In this document: positions 26,899 to 40,244 of the stretch, in pieces
Layout: the number at the start of each line of letters is the position of its first letter
Numbering within the stretch: the stretch's first letter is position 1
Source: Candidatus Methanohalarchaeum thermophilum
Lineage (GTDB): Archaea; Halobacteriota; Methanonatronarchaeia; Methanonatronarchaeales; Methanonatronarchaeaceae
Assembly (NCBI GenBank): GCA_001914405.1
Contig: MSDW01000001.1
Span: 496,001-560,000, forward strand
Direction: 5' to 3'
DNA: 64,000 bases
Translations under genes and position numbers: made by a program
The notes under the pieces: generated by a model
What the model was told of the DNA's origin: nothing
Seen by the model: the letters and a program-made list of their open reading frames with translations, nothing else
The model's database searches: none

Positions 26899-28444
<1,546 letters not shown>

Positions 28445-28500: not shown

Positions 28501-28591
<91 letters not shown>

Positions 28592-28740
28592 TTTCAGAAT
28601 CTTAAAATTAGAAAAATCAAATCAGATGCACCTAATTAGGTAGAAACTAGTTAGGGAAGGGTGGAGCCTCAAGAAAAGGCAAAGAAGCCGTGTGTAGGAA
28701 GGATAACCCGAACGTCTACTGGGTAAGAGTTAGTGAATGC

Positions 28741-31695
<2,955 letters not shown>

Positions 31696-31759: not shown

Positions 31760-31857
<98 letters not shown>

Positions 31858-31861
31858 TCTT

Positions 31862-32094
31862 GGGGTGCGACGACCATAGTGGCGGGGTAACACCCGGACC
31901 CATTTCGAACCCGGAAGTTAAGCCCGCCGACGTTCTGCCTTGTACCATGATACGCGAGTTCATGGGAAAGGTAGCCCTGTGAAGGGTAGTCATCTAACCG
32001 TCCAGGTCAGCAAGTTTCGTCCAGCGGGCTTTGCCCAACGGACGATTCGAGCTGATCGTTTAAAGGCGGTTAGCCGGCTGTTCGTTGTCGCCCC
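31862..32094 (+). rRNA. 5S ribosomal RNA with a ~104-nt structured insertion
   Basis: Canonical 5S blocks: GGGGTGCGACGACC (5' strand of helix I), GGCGGGGTAACACCCGGACCC, CATTTCGAACCCGGAAGTTAAG, then the helix IV/V arm ending GGAAAGGTAG at 31974. The expected closing strand TTCGTTGTCGCCCC appears only at 32081-32094. The intervening sequence (about 31975-32078) is itself paired: CCCT-GTGA-AGGG with a GNRA loop, then a rod of TAACCGTC/GGCGGTTA, GGTCAGC/GCTGATC, CGTCC/GGACG and GGGC-TTT-GCCC. Total is 233 nt instead of about 120. Halococcus morrhuae is known to have a 108-nt insertion in a ~231-nt 5S rRNA. Confidence 0.85.
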
Positions 32095-32273
32095 CATCTT
32101 TTTACATATACACAAATCTTTACATATACAAACAGTCATCTACCAAGAATTAAGCATATAAAAATAAAGAGTAAAGCTTTTTCTAATCAAAGACAGGATA
32201 AAAATAATTAACTATGAAAAATACTTTGTTATAATCTTATACTCTTTATATAAAAATATAATTTATTATTATC

Positions 32274-36576: not shown

Positions 36577-37326
36577 TCAGGTTGTATATTTACTAATATA
36601 TAAGCTTATTTCAAAGAACAAGAAAAGAGGCAATGCTATCATTACCTGTGTAATAATTGTTGGGCCCGTTACCAACCCCGAAAGAATCAAGATAAGTAAG
36701 TAAATAATTTTTCTCTTTTCTTTAACAGTTTTATACTTAACCAAACCAGATCTAATCGCTAAATTCAGAATAATTGGAAATTCAAACGTTATACCAAAAG
36801 CAAGAACCATTAAAACAACCAAATTAATGAACTTACTTATAGTATATGTTATTGCAATACCTGGATCTATCATATTACTCAAAATCACAAGTGCCTTGAA
36901 CATCAATGGAGTCATGAGGAAATACGAGTATAAAACTCCAGCTAAGAAAAGCAAAATCGCAGCTACTACAATAACCAAGATCTGCTTTTTCGACAGATTC
37001 AAGTTTAAATTAATCCTATCAATCTTCTCATTAATGGAACCATATAAATAATAAAAAATTAAAGGCAGAGCAATTAAAAGACCAATAATAATAGATATCT
37101 TTATTTGAACGGTTATAATCTCCAGAGGACCAATCCAAACTAGTTCAACATCACTAGGAACTCTAGAAAGCATCTGAGTCCTAATTTCATTTATAATAGC
37201 AAATGACAGAAGATAACCTAACCCAGTACCAACGATAAATACCGCAAATATCTTTAAAAGATGGGACCTAACCCCATCCAAAACATCATCAATCTCACTA
37301 AGAGTCTGCCTGTAATCTTCGCTCAC
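36577..37326 (-). CDS. tatC: Sec-independent translocase TatC (short paralogue)
   Basis: A 249-residue TatC-family protein with six membrane segments. It has an acidic amphipathic N terminus (LSEIDDVLDGVRSHLLKIF), an ELVWIGPLEIITVQIKISIIIGLLIALPLIFYYLYG core and a conserved helix 5-6 block KYKTVKEKRKIIYL. The usual FxxxE-type twin-arginine-recognition details are weaker than in the second TatC at 39144. Halophilic archaea often have two TatC proteins, and this pair faces apart with a dead transposon between them. Confidence 0.85.
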   Translation of the reverse strand: MSEDYRQTLSEIDDVLDGVRSHLLKIFAVFIVGTGLGYLLSFAIINEIRTQMLSRVPSDVELVWIGPLEIITVQIKISIIIGLLIALPLIFYYLYGSINEKIDRINLNLNLSKKQILVIVVAAILLFLAGVLYSYFLMTPLMFKALVILSNMIDPGIAITYTISKFINLVVLMVLAFGITFEFPIILNLAIRSGLVKYKTVKEKRKIIYLLILILSGLVTGPTIITQVMIALPLFLFFEISLYISKYTT

Positions 37327-37607: not shown

Positions 37608-39097
37608 TTATTATCTATTTGACTGAGAAGGCACCTTGCTAAATTTTTTGATTTGGGTGGGTGGTGGTTTAGTCTTCTGGAAAAACTTTTAGATATAGTG
37701 GTAAGCATTAGGTATGGTCGGATATAGTAGGATGAGGAAGTGTTTGAGGCAGAATCTATGTGGACTAACTAAACAAGAATATGAGATCCTAAAGAAGATG
37801 AGTCATAAATCCAAGGACCTATACAATGAAGTGTTCTACGAGAAGGAGACAAATACTTCTTTGACAATGGGGGATACCTTTAACTATTGCAATGCCTACA
37901 AACGTTTAAAAGTTGAAAGTGAGAGCTATAGAGTTTTGGCCTCTCAAATGGCTCGGTAAGCGATGAAGCATGTAGACAAAGCTTTTAAATCTTTCTTCAA
38001 GTTAATAAAGAAGAGAGGAGAGGGGGTAGGTATGATGGTGAAGCTAGTCCACTCCGTTACTTAGAAAAGGATGGATATTTTTTATTGATATTTCCTAAGT
38101 CAGAGTTTCCAGGTTAAAGAAGATCATATTTGAGTTGGTGTTCCAAGAGGTTTCTGTGAAAGGTATGAGTATGATAAAAGGGAAGTCTAGATTGATTTCT
38201 CTTATGAGAAGCTTAAACAGAGCCACATTGATATTAAGTAATTACATGTTTTTCTTAGGGCGAAGGCGGAGTATTTTGAGTATAGGGTTGTTTATGAGGA
38301 GGAGAAGGAACCAGTTGGGACAAAGGGAGGGTTCTTGGTTAGGTATTGATTTGGGGTTGGATAATTTGGCTACTTGTGTTGACCACTTTGGGCGCTCATT
38401 TATCTTGGATGGGCGATTACTTATAATCGTATAACAGGTGGTTTAATAAAGAAGTAGCTAAGTTACAATCTATTAAAGATAGGCAGGGATTTGATGGGAA
38501 CACGAAGAGAATAAACAAATTATTTCAGGACCGAAAAAACTACGTGCATGATTACTTAAATAAGGCAACCAAGGCAATCGTTGACTACTGCAAAGAAAAT
38601 AGGATAGGGAGGGTGTTTTGTGGTGATGGAAAGGGGCTGGAAACAAGAGGTTAATATTGGTGATAAGAACAACCAGAGTTTTGTGGAGATACCTTTTGAT
38701 TGGTTTAAGCAAAAACTTAAGCATAAACTAGAGTATTATGGCATAGAGTTCAAGTTAGTTAATGAAGCATACACAAGCAAATGCAACGCATTAGCCAACA
38801 CTGAAGTAAGGAAAAAACCAAGTTATAGAGGAAAAAAAACAGAAAGAGGTCTATACGAAACAAGTGATGGCGTACTGATTAATGCTGATTTGAATGGTGC
38901 TTTGAATATTGCTAAGAAAGGGTATGTCTGAAACTAATTTGGAGTTGGGAGTAGGAGGTAGTGGTTGTGTGGACACGCCAAGGAGAATAAGGAAACCCTT
39001 TGGGTTAAGATGCGGCTCAGATATAAAAGTGAGAGCCTAATTCAAACTTCTCCTGAAATCCCCTTCCTAATCTTTTGATTAGGTAGGGGTAGTTCAC
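37608..39097 (+). mobile_element. Degenerate IS200/IS605-type unit D1 (tnpB only)
   Basis: Left end TTTATTATCTATTTGACTGAG with palindrome CTAAATTTTTTGATTTGGG. Right end palindrome CCTTCCTAATCTTTTGATTAGG then GGGGTAGTTCAC. The 115 bp before the right palindrome (38940-39060), with CACGCCAAGGAGAATAAGG and GAGAGCCTAATTCAAACTTC, is the presumptive omega-RNA. It is homologous to the middle of family A elements. A near-identical copy stands at 41782-43291. Confidence 0.8.
37714..38931 (+). pseudogene. tnpB: Broken tnpB (copy D1)
   Basis: Segments of one TnpB appear in shifting frames: RMRKCLRQNLCGLTKQEYE (N terminus), [27 protein letters not shown] (first RuvC Asp), [37 protein letters not shown] and [16 protein letters not shown] (last catalytic Asp). 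Several stops and frameshifts make it non-functional. Regions in common with D2 keep the same defects in part, so one may be a copy of an already damaged element. Confidence 0.85.
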
Positions 39098-39143: not shown

Positions 39144-40244
39144 ATGAGCGGACCTGAAAAGGATGAGGAAAGACCTTTGGTCGAGCATCTTATTGAGTTG
39201 AGAAAGAGGGTTGGTATAGCTTTAGCTGGGGTTGTGTTGATTACGATCGTTATTTTTCCTTTGTCCTTTAAATTAATATCTATTTTAGTTGGAACGGTTA
39301 CGGATCCCTCTAATCTAGCTATTTACGATCCCTTAGAAACTATTTTGATTCAGATTAATTTTTCGTTGATTGCGGGGTTTGCTTTGGGTCTTCCTTTGAT
39401 CTTGTATGAAGCTTATAAGTTCATGGAACCAGGGCTTTTTTTGAATGAAAGAAGATTTTTTGCTCTTTTAACCCCTACATCTCTCTTTTTGTTTACTCTA
39501 GGAGCTTCAATAGGTTTTTTTTATGTTGTTCCAACATTATCTGACTTGGTTTTAACTATTGGCCAAGGAGCATCCGTTAGGCCTGCTATTTCAATACAGA
39601 GAGCTTTTAATTATGTTATTTCTATCGTAGCTGGGTTAGGGTTTATTTTTCAACTACCTCTAGCTTTGTTATTTGCTATTCGAATAGAACTCGTTAAGTT
39701 AGAGACCCTAAAGAAAAGAAGATTAATGGTTTACATCCTTTTTTTCGTTGTTGCTAGTATTGTAAACCCTGATCCTACTTTCATAACACAGACAATAGTT
39801 GCTGCTATATTTATAGTTCTCTATGAGTTTAGTTTAAGAATAGGTTACTATGTTACTCCTGATACTGATGCAGAGATCATAAACTTCCTAGATAGATTCA
39901 CAGCTTTAGGCCCACTCTTTGTGGCTCTAGGAGCCCTGATAGGATACCTATTTGTATCTAAATTAGGTATATGGTGGGTTACAGCAATAACACTAGGATC
40001 CTTTATATTTTACTTAACACAGAGATTCAGTAACCTAATAATAGAAGAAGAAAAAATAGGAACAATAGGTTTCTTTACACCAATTCTAGGCCCAATGATT
40101 GGATTATTCCTAGCAGAAAAATACTTCACGTATCTACCCCAATTACTCCAAAAAATTCAATTCGGCTACACAGTTTTAATCCCCATAATCATGGCTGCCA
40201 TAACATTTGGATTAGAAAAAATAAATAACAAATTATTAAAATAA
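39144..40244 (+). CDS. tatC: Sec-independent translocase TatC with C-terminal membrane extension
   Basis: The first ~235 residues are a full TatC: PLVEHLIELRKRVGIAL (amphipathic N terminus with the conserved Glu), FMEPGLFLNERRFF, six membrane helices and the NPDPTF signature of the 5-6 loop. About 130 residues with four further hydrophobic segments follow (LGPLFVALGALIGYLFV onward), an extension absent from most bacterial TatC. Together with the short paralogue at 36577 it resembles the two-TatC set of haloarchaea. No TatA is visible nearby. Start ATG 39144. A family D1 palindrome ends 47 bp upstream. Confidence 0.9.
   Translation: MSGPEKDEERPLVEHLIELRKRVGIALAGVVLITIVIFPLSFKLISILVGTVTDPSNLAIYDPLETILIQINFSLIAGFALGLPLILYEAYKFMEPGLFLNERRFFALLTPTSLFLFTLGASIGFFYVVPTLSDLVLTIGQGASVRPAISIQRAFNYVISIVAGLGFIFQLPLALLFAIRIELVKLETLKKRRLMVYILFFVVASIVNPDPTFITQTIVAAIFIVLYEFSLRIGYYVTPDTDAEIINFLDRFTALGPLFVALGALIGYLFVSKLGIWWVTAITLGSFIFYLTQRFSNLIIEEEKIGTIGFFTPILGPMIGLFLAEKYFTYLPQLLQKIQFGYTVLIPIIMAAITFGLEKINNKLLK

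Follow-up and report, generated by a model that had tools for sequence, protein, structure and literature searches.

Archaeal 5S rRNAs that contain a long expansion have been described for 15 strains of Halococcus, Halalkalicoccus, Halomarina, and Halodesulfurarchaeum (PMC7812874), and the Halococcus insert is known to be retained in the mature RNA (PMC7812874, PMC7530397). An internally paired insert within 5S rRNA has also been reported for Thermoanaerobacterium and other bacteria, but in that bacterial group the insert comprises 41-46 nt and is located at positions 52/53 (PMC7812874). The gene considered here, which lies within a 64-kb stretch of DNA (called the window in what follows), is of the Halococcus morrhuae type in its insertion site and two-part architecture. 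Its host, however, is a probable methanogen outside Halobacteria, assigned to Methanonatronarchaeia; excerpts of the open-licence PubMed Central literature on this class and on 5S insertions hold no report of a 5S insertion in Methanonatronarchaeia. The class is also known as the SA1 group (PMC7599335), and two orders are named within it (PMC13082222).

Trees based on proteins are affected by compositional bias. Where Methanonatronarchaeia branch is actively disputed: Zhao et al. describe them as sisters of Halobacteria, which implies one origin of extreme halophily (PMC10873845), whereas site-heterogeneous protein models place them far deeper, which implies two (PMC13082222). Given this dispute, the insert is a discrete character that bears on the placement. 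A homologous rRNA insert of about 106 nt at one site constitutes an independent character, and descent, transfer, and convergence differ in what they predict for further genomes. Our preferred reading, to which we assign a probability of roughly 0.7, is that the gene encodes a working 5S rRNA with a segment of about 105 nt homologous to the Halococcus-type inserts. This segment would either have arisen a single time, ahead of the split between Methanonatronarchaeia and Halobacteria, and then have been lost repeatedly, or have passed from one of the two groups to the other.

The expanded 5S rRNA gene and its predicted fold

The window contains an rRNA operon with the order 16S-tRNA-23S-tRNA-5S (Table 1). 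A previous sequence-only reading had claimed an oversized 5S gene of 233 nt, almost double the normal length, and this was confirmed by a match to the Rfam model RF00001 and by the closure of helix I upon folding. The score of 74.8 bits, compared with a cut-off of 38, indicates that the 5S core is recognised; the match spans 31866-31987 and takes the region of the insert's first hairpin for the 3' strand of helix I. According to Stepanov and Fox, the archaeal expanded 5S genes that they found had been misannotated in the same way (PMC7812874). A second, normal 5S gene, the presence of which would have altered the interpretation, was looked for; there is no further RF00001 match at E <= 0.001 in the host genome (2.14 Mb, rated 95% complete). 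The low-GC, non-Halococcus setting noted earlier is also correct: the GC content is 36.6% for the window, 35% without the rRNA operon, and 57.9% for the 5S gene, and the genome lies outside Halobacteria. In each of the two operon tRNAs, the anticodon loop contains an intron-like insertion. The tRNA between 23S and 5S, a tRNA-Cys by eye (anticodon GCA) that is absent from the ARAGORN output, stops five bases short of the 5S gene.

Table 1. Positions of the operon members and of the parts of the expanded 5S rRNA, in window coordinates
Feature	Position	Strand	Evidence
16S rRNA	26940..28418	+	Rfam RF01959, 1578.5 bits; same operon as the expanded 5S
tRNA with intron, between 16S and 23S	28501..28591	+	Rfam tRNA 58.5 bits, anticodon-loop insertion; ARAGORN; one strict bulge-helix-bulge
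23S rRNA	28735..31691	+	Rfam RF02540, 2865 bits
tRNA with intron, directly 5' of 5S	31760..31856	+	Rfam tRNA 53.6 bits, anticodon-loop insertion
Expanded 5S rRNA gene, 233 nt	31862..32094	+	RF00001 74.8 bits; sole match in the genome; folds
Helix I, 5' strand	31862..31873	+	Sequence and fold
Expansion segment	31975..32079	+	z = -5.8; R2 match 31975-32077, 27.6 bits, E = 4.6e-5, unfiltered
Small hairpin CCCU-GUGA-AGGG, at the position of the first Halococcus hairpin	31975..31986	+	Folds; alignment to R2
Rod: base stem, stem 1, asymmetric loop, stem 2, stem 3, tip	31988..32079	+	Folds; changes relative to G001
Asymmetric internal loop, 5' side, CA	32003..32004	+	Folds
Distal tip AGCGGGCUUUGCCCAA	32023..32038	+	Identical in G000 and G001
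Asymmetric internal loop, 3' side, GUUUAAA	32058..32064	+	Folds; sequences
Helix I, 3' strand; restart of the core 3' of the insert	32081..32094	+	Sequence and fold

When the gene is folded, GGGG (31862-31865) pairs with CCCC (32091-32094) to form helix I. The fold of 31860-32096 closes the same helix with its register shifted by one base and has a minimum free energy (MFE) of -115.2 kcal/mol, which none of 200 shuffles equals (z = -6.4); for the insert alone (31975-32079) the MFE is -49.3, again equalled by 0/200 shuffles (z = -5.8). Without 31975-32080 the gene is reduced to 127 nt, whose fold resembles that of a normal 5S rRNA. The expansion segment thus delimited lies between helix V and helix I and is 105-106 nt long, its ends being ambiguous by one base (31974, 32080) because there is a G on both sides. 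In the numbering applied in this analysis, the insertion site is the 3' end of helix V (104.1/105), after GGGAAAGGUAG. These folds bear out the proposal that the core runs to 31974 and that the helix I strand resumes at 32081; the insert is rod-like and of Halococcus size, as had been stated, but the proposed length of ~104 nt falls slightly short.

Helix V (GGUAG) ends at 31974 and is followed immediately by a 4-bp hairpin with a GUGA cap. Then comes the rod, at the base of which there is a stem, AGUC/GGCU, then a 9-bp stem, and then an asymmetric loop, CA / GUUUAAA; above this loop, a small internal region separates a 7-bp stem from a 6-bp stem, which leads to the tip, GGGC-UUU-GCCC. Both the GNRA-capped CCCT-GTGA-AGGG and the tip hairpin GGGC-TTT-GCCC (32026-32036) had been recognised from the letters and are present as described.

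The 5S rRNA would be transcribed as part of the operon and remain unspliced, with its core fold intact. The opposing idea, that the ~105 nt are an intron cut out by the tRNA-splicing endonuclease, gains some plausibility from the anticodon-loop insertions in the two operon tRNAs, but neither the motifs needed for such a reaction nor the behaviour of the Halococcus RNA argues for it. A scan of the stretch, which as a control recovered the tRNA intron at 28501 and missed the one at 31760, gave three strict bulge-helix-bulge motifs, compared with a shuffle mean of 5.5. One strict motif has a bulge adjoining the 3' junction of the insert, and none joins the two insert junctions. In addition, the Halococcus insert persists in the mature RNA (PMC7812874, PMC7530397). 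Splicing of the insert is unlikely, and we give its excision by this endonuclease a very small probability indeed.

Inserts in Halobacteria and Methanonatronarchaeia

A model built from three Halobacteria inserts (R1) matches 33 of 391 sampled Halobacteria genomes at E <= 1.2e-11, and by eye all 33 matches sit inside a 5S gene. By the anonymous taxon numbering used for counting, these genomes represent five families and ten genera. The insert of one of them, G564 (contig 54, 66420-66525), falls within the interval 66311-66541 published for NZ_AOMC01000054.1; this genome is thus very probably that of H. morrhuae DSM 1307, which identifies genus g99 as Halococcus and the scanned class as Halobacteria. 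In five further Halobacteria genomes R1 gives only weak matches, with E between 0.06 and 0.84; two were inspected as candidate expanded 5S genes and rejected, since they are not 5S. A sixth family is represented by G703, whose insert (L170, 1189-1291) scores 45.9 bits with a second model, R2, from which L170 had been excluded. Consequently, Halococcus, which had been named as the classic organism with such an insertion, does match in site and size, but it is not alone, as more genera and families carry the insert.

L170 is the most divergent Halobacteria insert seen, and the haloarchaeal family to which it belongs has draft genomes of ~1 Mb. The other 5S of G703 (L171, G703:C103) looks bacterial by eye although it is found within an archaeal draft genome; contamination of the G703 assembly is therefore probable. 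L170 was picked by a scan for the closure of helix I, which flagged 41 of 118 cores and was used for this purpose only, L170 then being checked by eye and run against R2; the false positives of the scan include L006, L016, and the tandem genes L037 and L054, and several known expanded genes were missed.

Two other scans covered the phylum. RF00001 has a match in at least 328 of 392 genomes. A low RF00001 score was considered as a flag for expansion and dropped: G010 and G059, both expanded, still reach E-values of about 7e-20, and for this reason the scan cannot exclude further expanded 5S genes. R3, a model that includes the Methanonatronarchaeia inserts, finds an insert under strict filters in six Halobacteria genomes and in G000 and G001 only, among 392 genomes; two more matches are weak (E 0.04 and 0.39).

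R2 derives from an alignment, A6, of 25 of the 33 strongly matching inserts without the 5S core, eight near-copies having been left out. The Halobacteria inserts have the same site, a length of 102-110 nt, and a hairpin (with a GNRA loop in 23/25) that is followed by a rod. Covariation supports the structure of these inserts: in A6, 20 of 33 pairs have changed on both sides, a count reached by 0/500 shuffles, and 95.4% of cells are paired. The distal tip is the best conserved part: 77% of its 30 columns are at least 95% identical, compared with 0-33% in the other segments. Within columns 51-82 of A6 the rod tip is highly conserved over five families while the lower stems drift; L096 and L097 deviate. 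The asymmetric loop has the form CA / GUUACAAC in Halococcus-like inserts and, by eye, other forms elsewhere, for example GA with GUCGAC or UA with GUUGAU, and because of this variation a CA / GUU..AA loop does not define a group.

That the rod tip is so strongly conserved in Halobacteria speaks for a functional role in what is otherwise described as a flexible structure. By analogy with the H. morrhuae cryo-EM structure, the insert would extend outwards at the central protuberance, starting where helix V ends. Its distal tip probably contacts something, whether a protein or 23S rRNA, and the rod below the tip may act as a spacer whose base pairs are free to drift.

Three genomes of Methanonatronarchaeia were available for comparison. 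The host genome (G000) and a second genus of the same family (G001) have the insert, with corresponding stems; the 5S gene of G002, which represents a different order, is normal. A MAFFT alignment of the two inserts is out of register with the stems, and a hand register was therefore used for pair counts and for the reverse profile described below. In this register, 20 of 28 paired positions are the same in G000 and G001, four have changed on one side, and four on both. The tip is identical at 16/16 positions, against 51/89 elsewhere (p = 4e-4), the latter figure coming from the MAFFT alignment, which is partly out of register and may understate identity outside the tip. On its 3' side the asymmetric loop reads GUUUAAA in G000, GUUAAA in G001, and GUUACAAC in Halococcus; on its 5' side it reads CA in all three. 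The first hairpin of G001 lacks a GNRA loop. In the MFE fold of the whole G001 RNA the hairpin region pairs with helix IV/V sequence; folded on its own, the G001 insert adopts the described structure. The 5S cores of G000 and G002 look alike by eye. A methyl-coenzyme M reductase alpha gene was found in G000 (215 bits), with no match in G001 or G002.

Comparison with the H. morrhuae insert, which the sequence-only reading had proposed, reveals several common features: each genome has one 5S type, the site agrees to within one base, the length is nearly equal, the core fold is kept, and in both cases a GNRA hairpin precedes a rod with an asymmetric internal loop starting CA / GUU. The differences lie in the stem lengths, in the 3' side of the loop (GUUUAAA here, GUUACAAC in Halococcus), and in the tip, which is AGCGGGCUUUGCCCAA here and ACACGCAGGGUCCGUCCCGGUGG in the H. 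morrhuae insert.

Probable homology between the two groups of inserts

When R2 is run unfiltered on the 64-kb window, the insert ranks first, matching end to end with 27.6 bits, and the next match has 12.6; the E-value of 4.6e-5 is roughly calibrated, on a window that includes 16S, 23S, and RNase P RNA. The G001 insert obtains 18.9 bits in the unfiltered search, and the normal 5S locus L003 obtains 8.7 or less. Structure-preserving shuffles, scored with our own scorer, reach the real score in 2/1500 cases for the window insert, in 0/1500 for G001, and in 0/1500 for the held-out L170. A first run had given 1/300 and 0/300, and three other parameter settings gave 0-1/400, with z of 3.0-4.1.

Filtered searches did not recover this relationship. 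R1, with default filters, missed the window insert, this model being too narrow (three inserts), and with filters on, R2 recovered neither G000 nor G001 in a whole-genome search. The two Methanonatronarchaeia inserts are visible only by unfiltered scans or with R3, and the R3 matches to them are circular because R3 contains them. A reverse profile made from G000 and G001 only places 10/10 Halobacteria inserts above the shuffle mean (z 0.27-3.84). Clear matches are seen for H. morrhuae (z = 2.7), g128 (2.4), f35 (3.8), and g154 (3.1); the other six have z of 0.3-1.8, the lowest being f39 (0.3 and 1.4) and f40 (1.3). Direct identity is low, with a p-distance to the Halobacteria inserts of 0.45-0.60 in the model alignment.

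If the end of helix V tolerates a long insert, two lineages might each have acquired a rod there. Stepanov and Fox regard this as the sole archaeal site that permits unhindered expansion (PMC7812874), and the p-distances, the loss of the link in filtered searches, and the weak reverse profile for six of the ten inserts would all be compatible with two gains. What speaks against them is the unfiltered R2 match (E = 4.6e-5), together with the scarcity of shuffles that reach the real score (2/1500 and 0/1500, similar under other settings) and the hairpin-then-rod order common to both groups. We regard independent gain as unlikely; homology of the window insert to the Halobacteria inserts is likely, but it is not proven. 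The alternatives first put forward from the sequence, independent gain or deep ancestry, have changed accordingly: the R2 match and the shuffles disfavour the former, and the latter is one of two readings that are left, beside transfer. That initial interpretation is thus partly supported.

Possible descent or transfer of the insert

A 23S rRNA tree was built from 40 hand-chosen genomes (22 expanded and 18 normal), five of them outside both classes; G001 contributes only 700 nt. Two other loci had no 23S match, and some stretches were too short or went unused. In this tree G000, G001, and G002 join Halobacteria with support of 100/99, a position that, together with the methyl-coenzyme M reductase gene, points to Methanonatronarchaeia as the class of the host. 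The first branch within Halobacteria consists of f39 (expanded) and f25 (normal), and the next is f40 (expanded), with support of 89/89 for the branch above. The state of the insert changes at least six times on this tree, a count that depends on the choice of genomes because the normal ones were hand-picked rather than random. Three of the changes are forced by well-supported branches, and 0% of 200 bootstrap trees allow a single change. Across 19 Halobacteria, insert distance correlates with 23S distance (r = 0.70, 0/5000), as it does when each group is represented by a single genome (n = 9, r = 0.54, 1/5000); within seven crown genomes there is no clear correlation (r = 0.335, 278/5000). 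An insert-only tree was rejected as an arbiter between descent and transfer, as it is too short and long-branched. An old origin with many losses and some transfer in the crown fits these results.

If the inserts are homologous, there is room for two histories. The expansion segment may be a synapomorphy uniting Methanonatronarchaeia with Halobacteria, which their common ancestor already had and which later disappeared on many occasions, a proposal we put forward tentatively and rate well short of an even chance. If it is true, the insert would be a rare discrete marker that favours the sister relationship over the deep placement proposed in 2026, and the conserved tip would mark a lineage-specific ribosome contact. 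Alternatively, a homologous insert could have moved between the two groups by transfer rather than by descent, which is possible, although we likewise put it well below even odds. The normal 5S of G002, a member of a different order, is in keeping with transfer, as are the better fit of the reverse profile to crown inserts (f35, g154, Halococcus) than to the deep f39/f40 and the correlation results for the seven crown genomes. Yet over the 19 Halobacteria the insert distance tracks the 23S distance, and deep Halobacteria branches carry the insert. Furthermore, the G000 core is like the G002 core by eye, and so only the segment, not the whole 5S, could have been transferred. Transfer among four genera also sits poorly, as the whole story, with the wider distribution in Halobacteria, which includes deep 23S branches.

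The halophily of the host is presumed from its class membership only. The 23 open reading frames of at least 200 aa in the window have a median pI of 6.06, with 11/23 below 6, and the window itself therefore shows no acid proteome. Downstream of the operon, several short open frames on the + strand (37714-38931) resemble by eye a broken IS605-type TnpB transposase gene. This TnpB-like stretch is flanked by 36577-37326 and 39144-40244, which appear by eye to encode TatC-like membrane proteins in opposite orientations.
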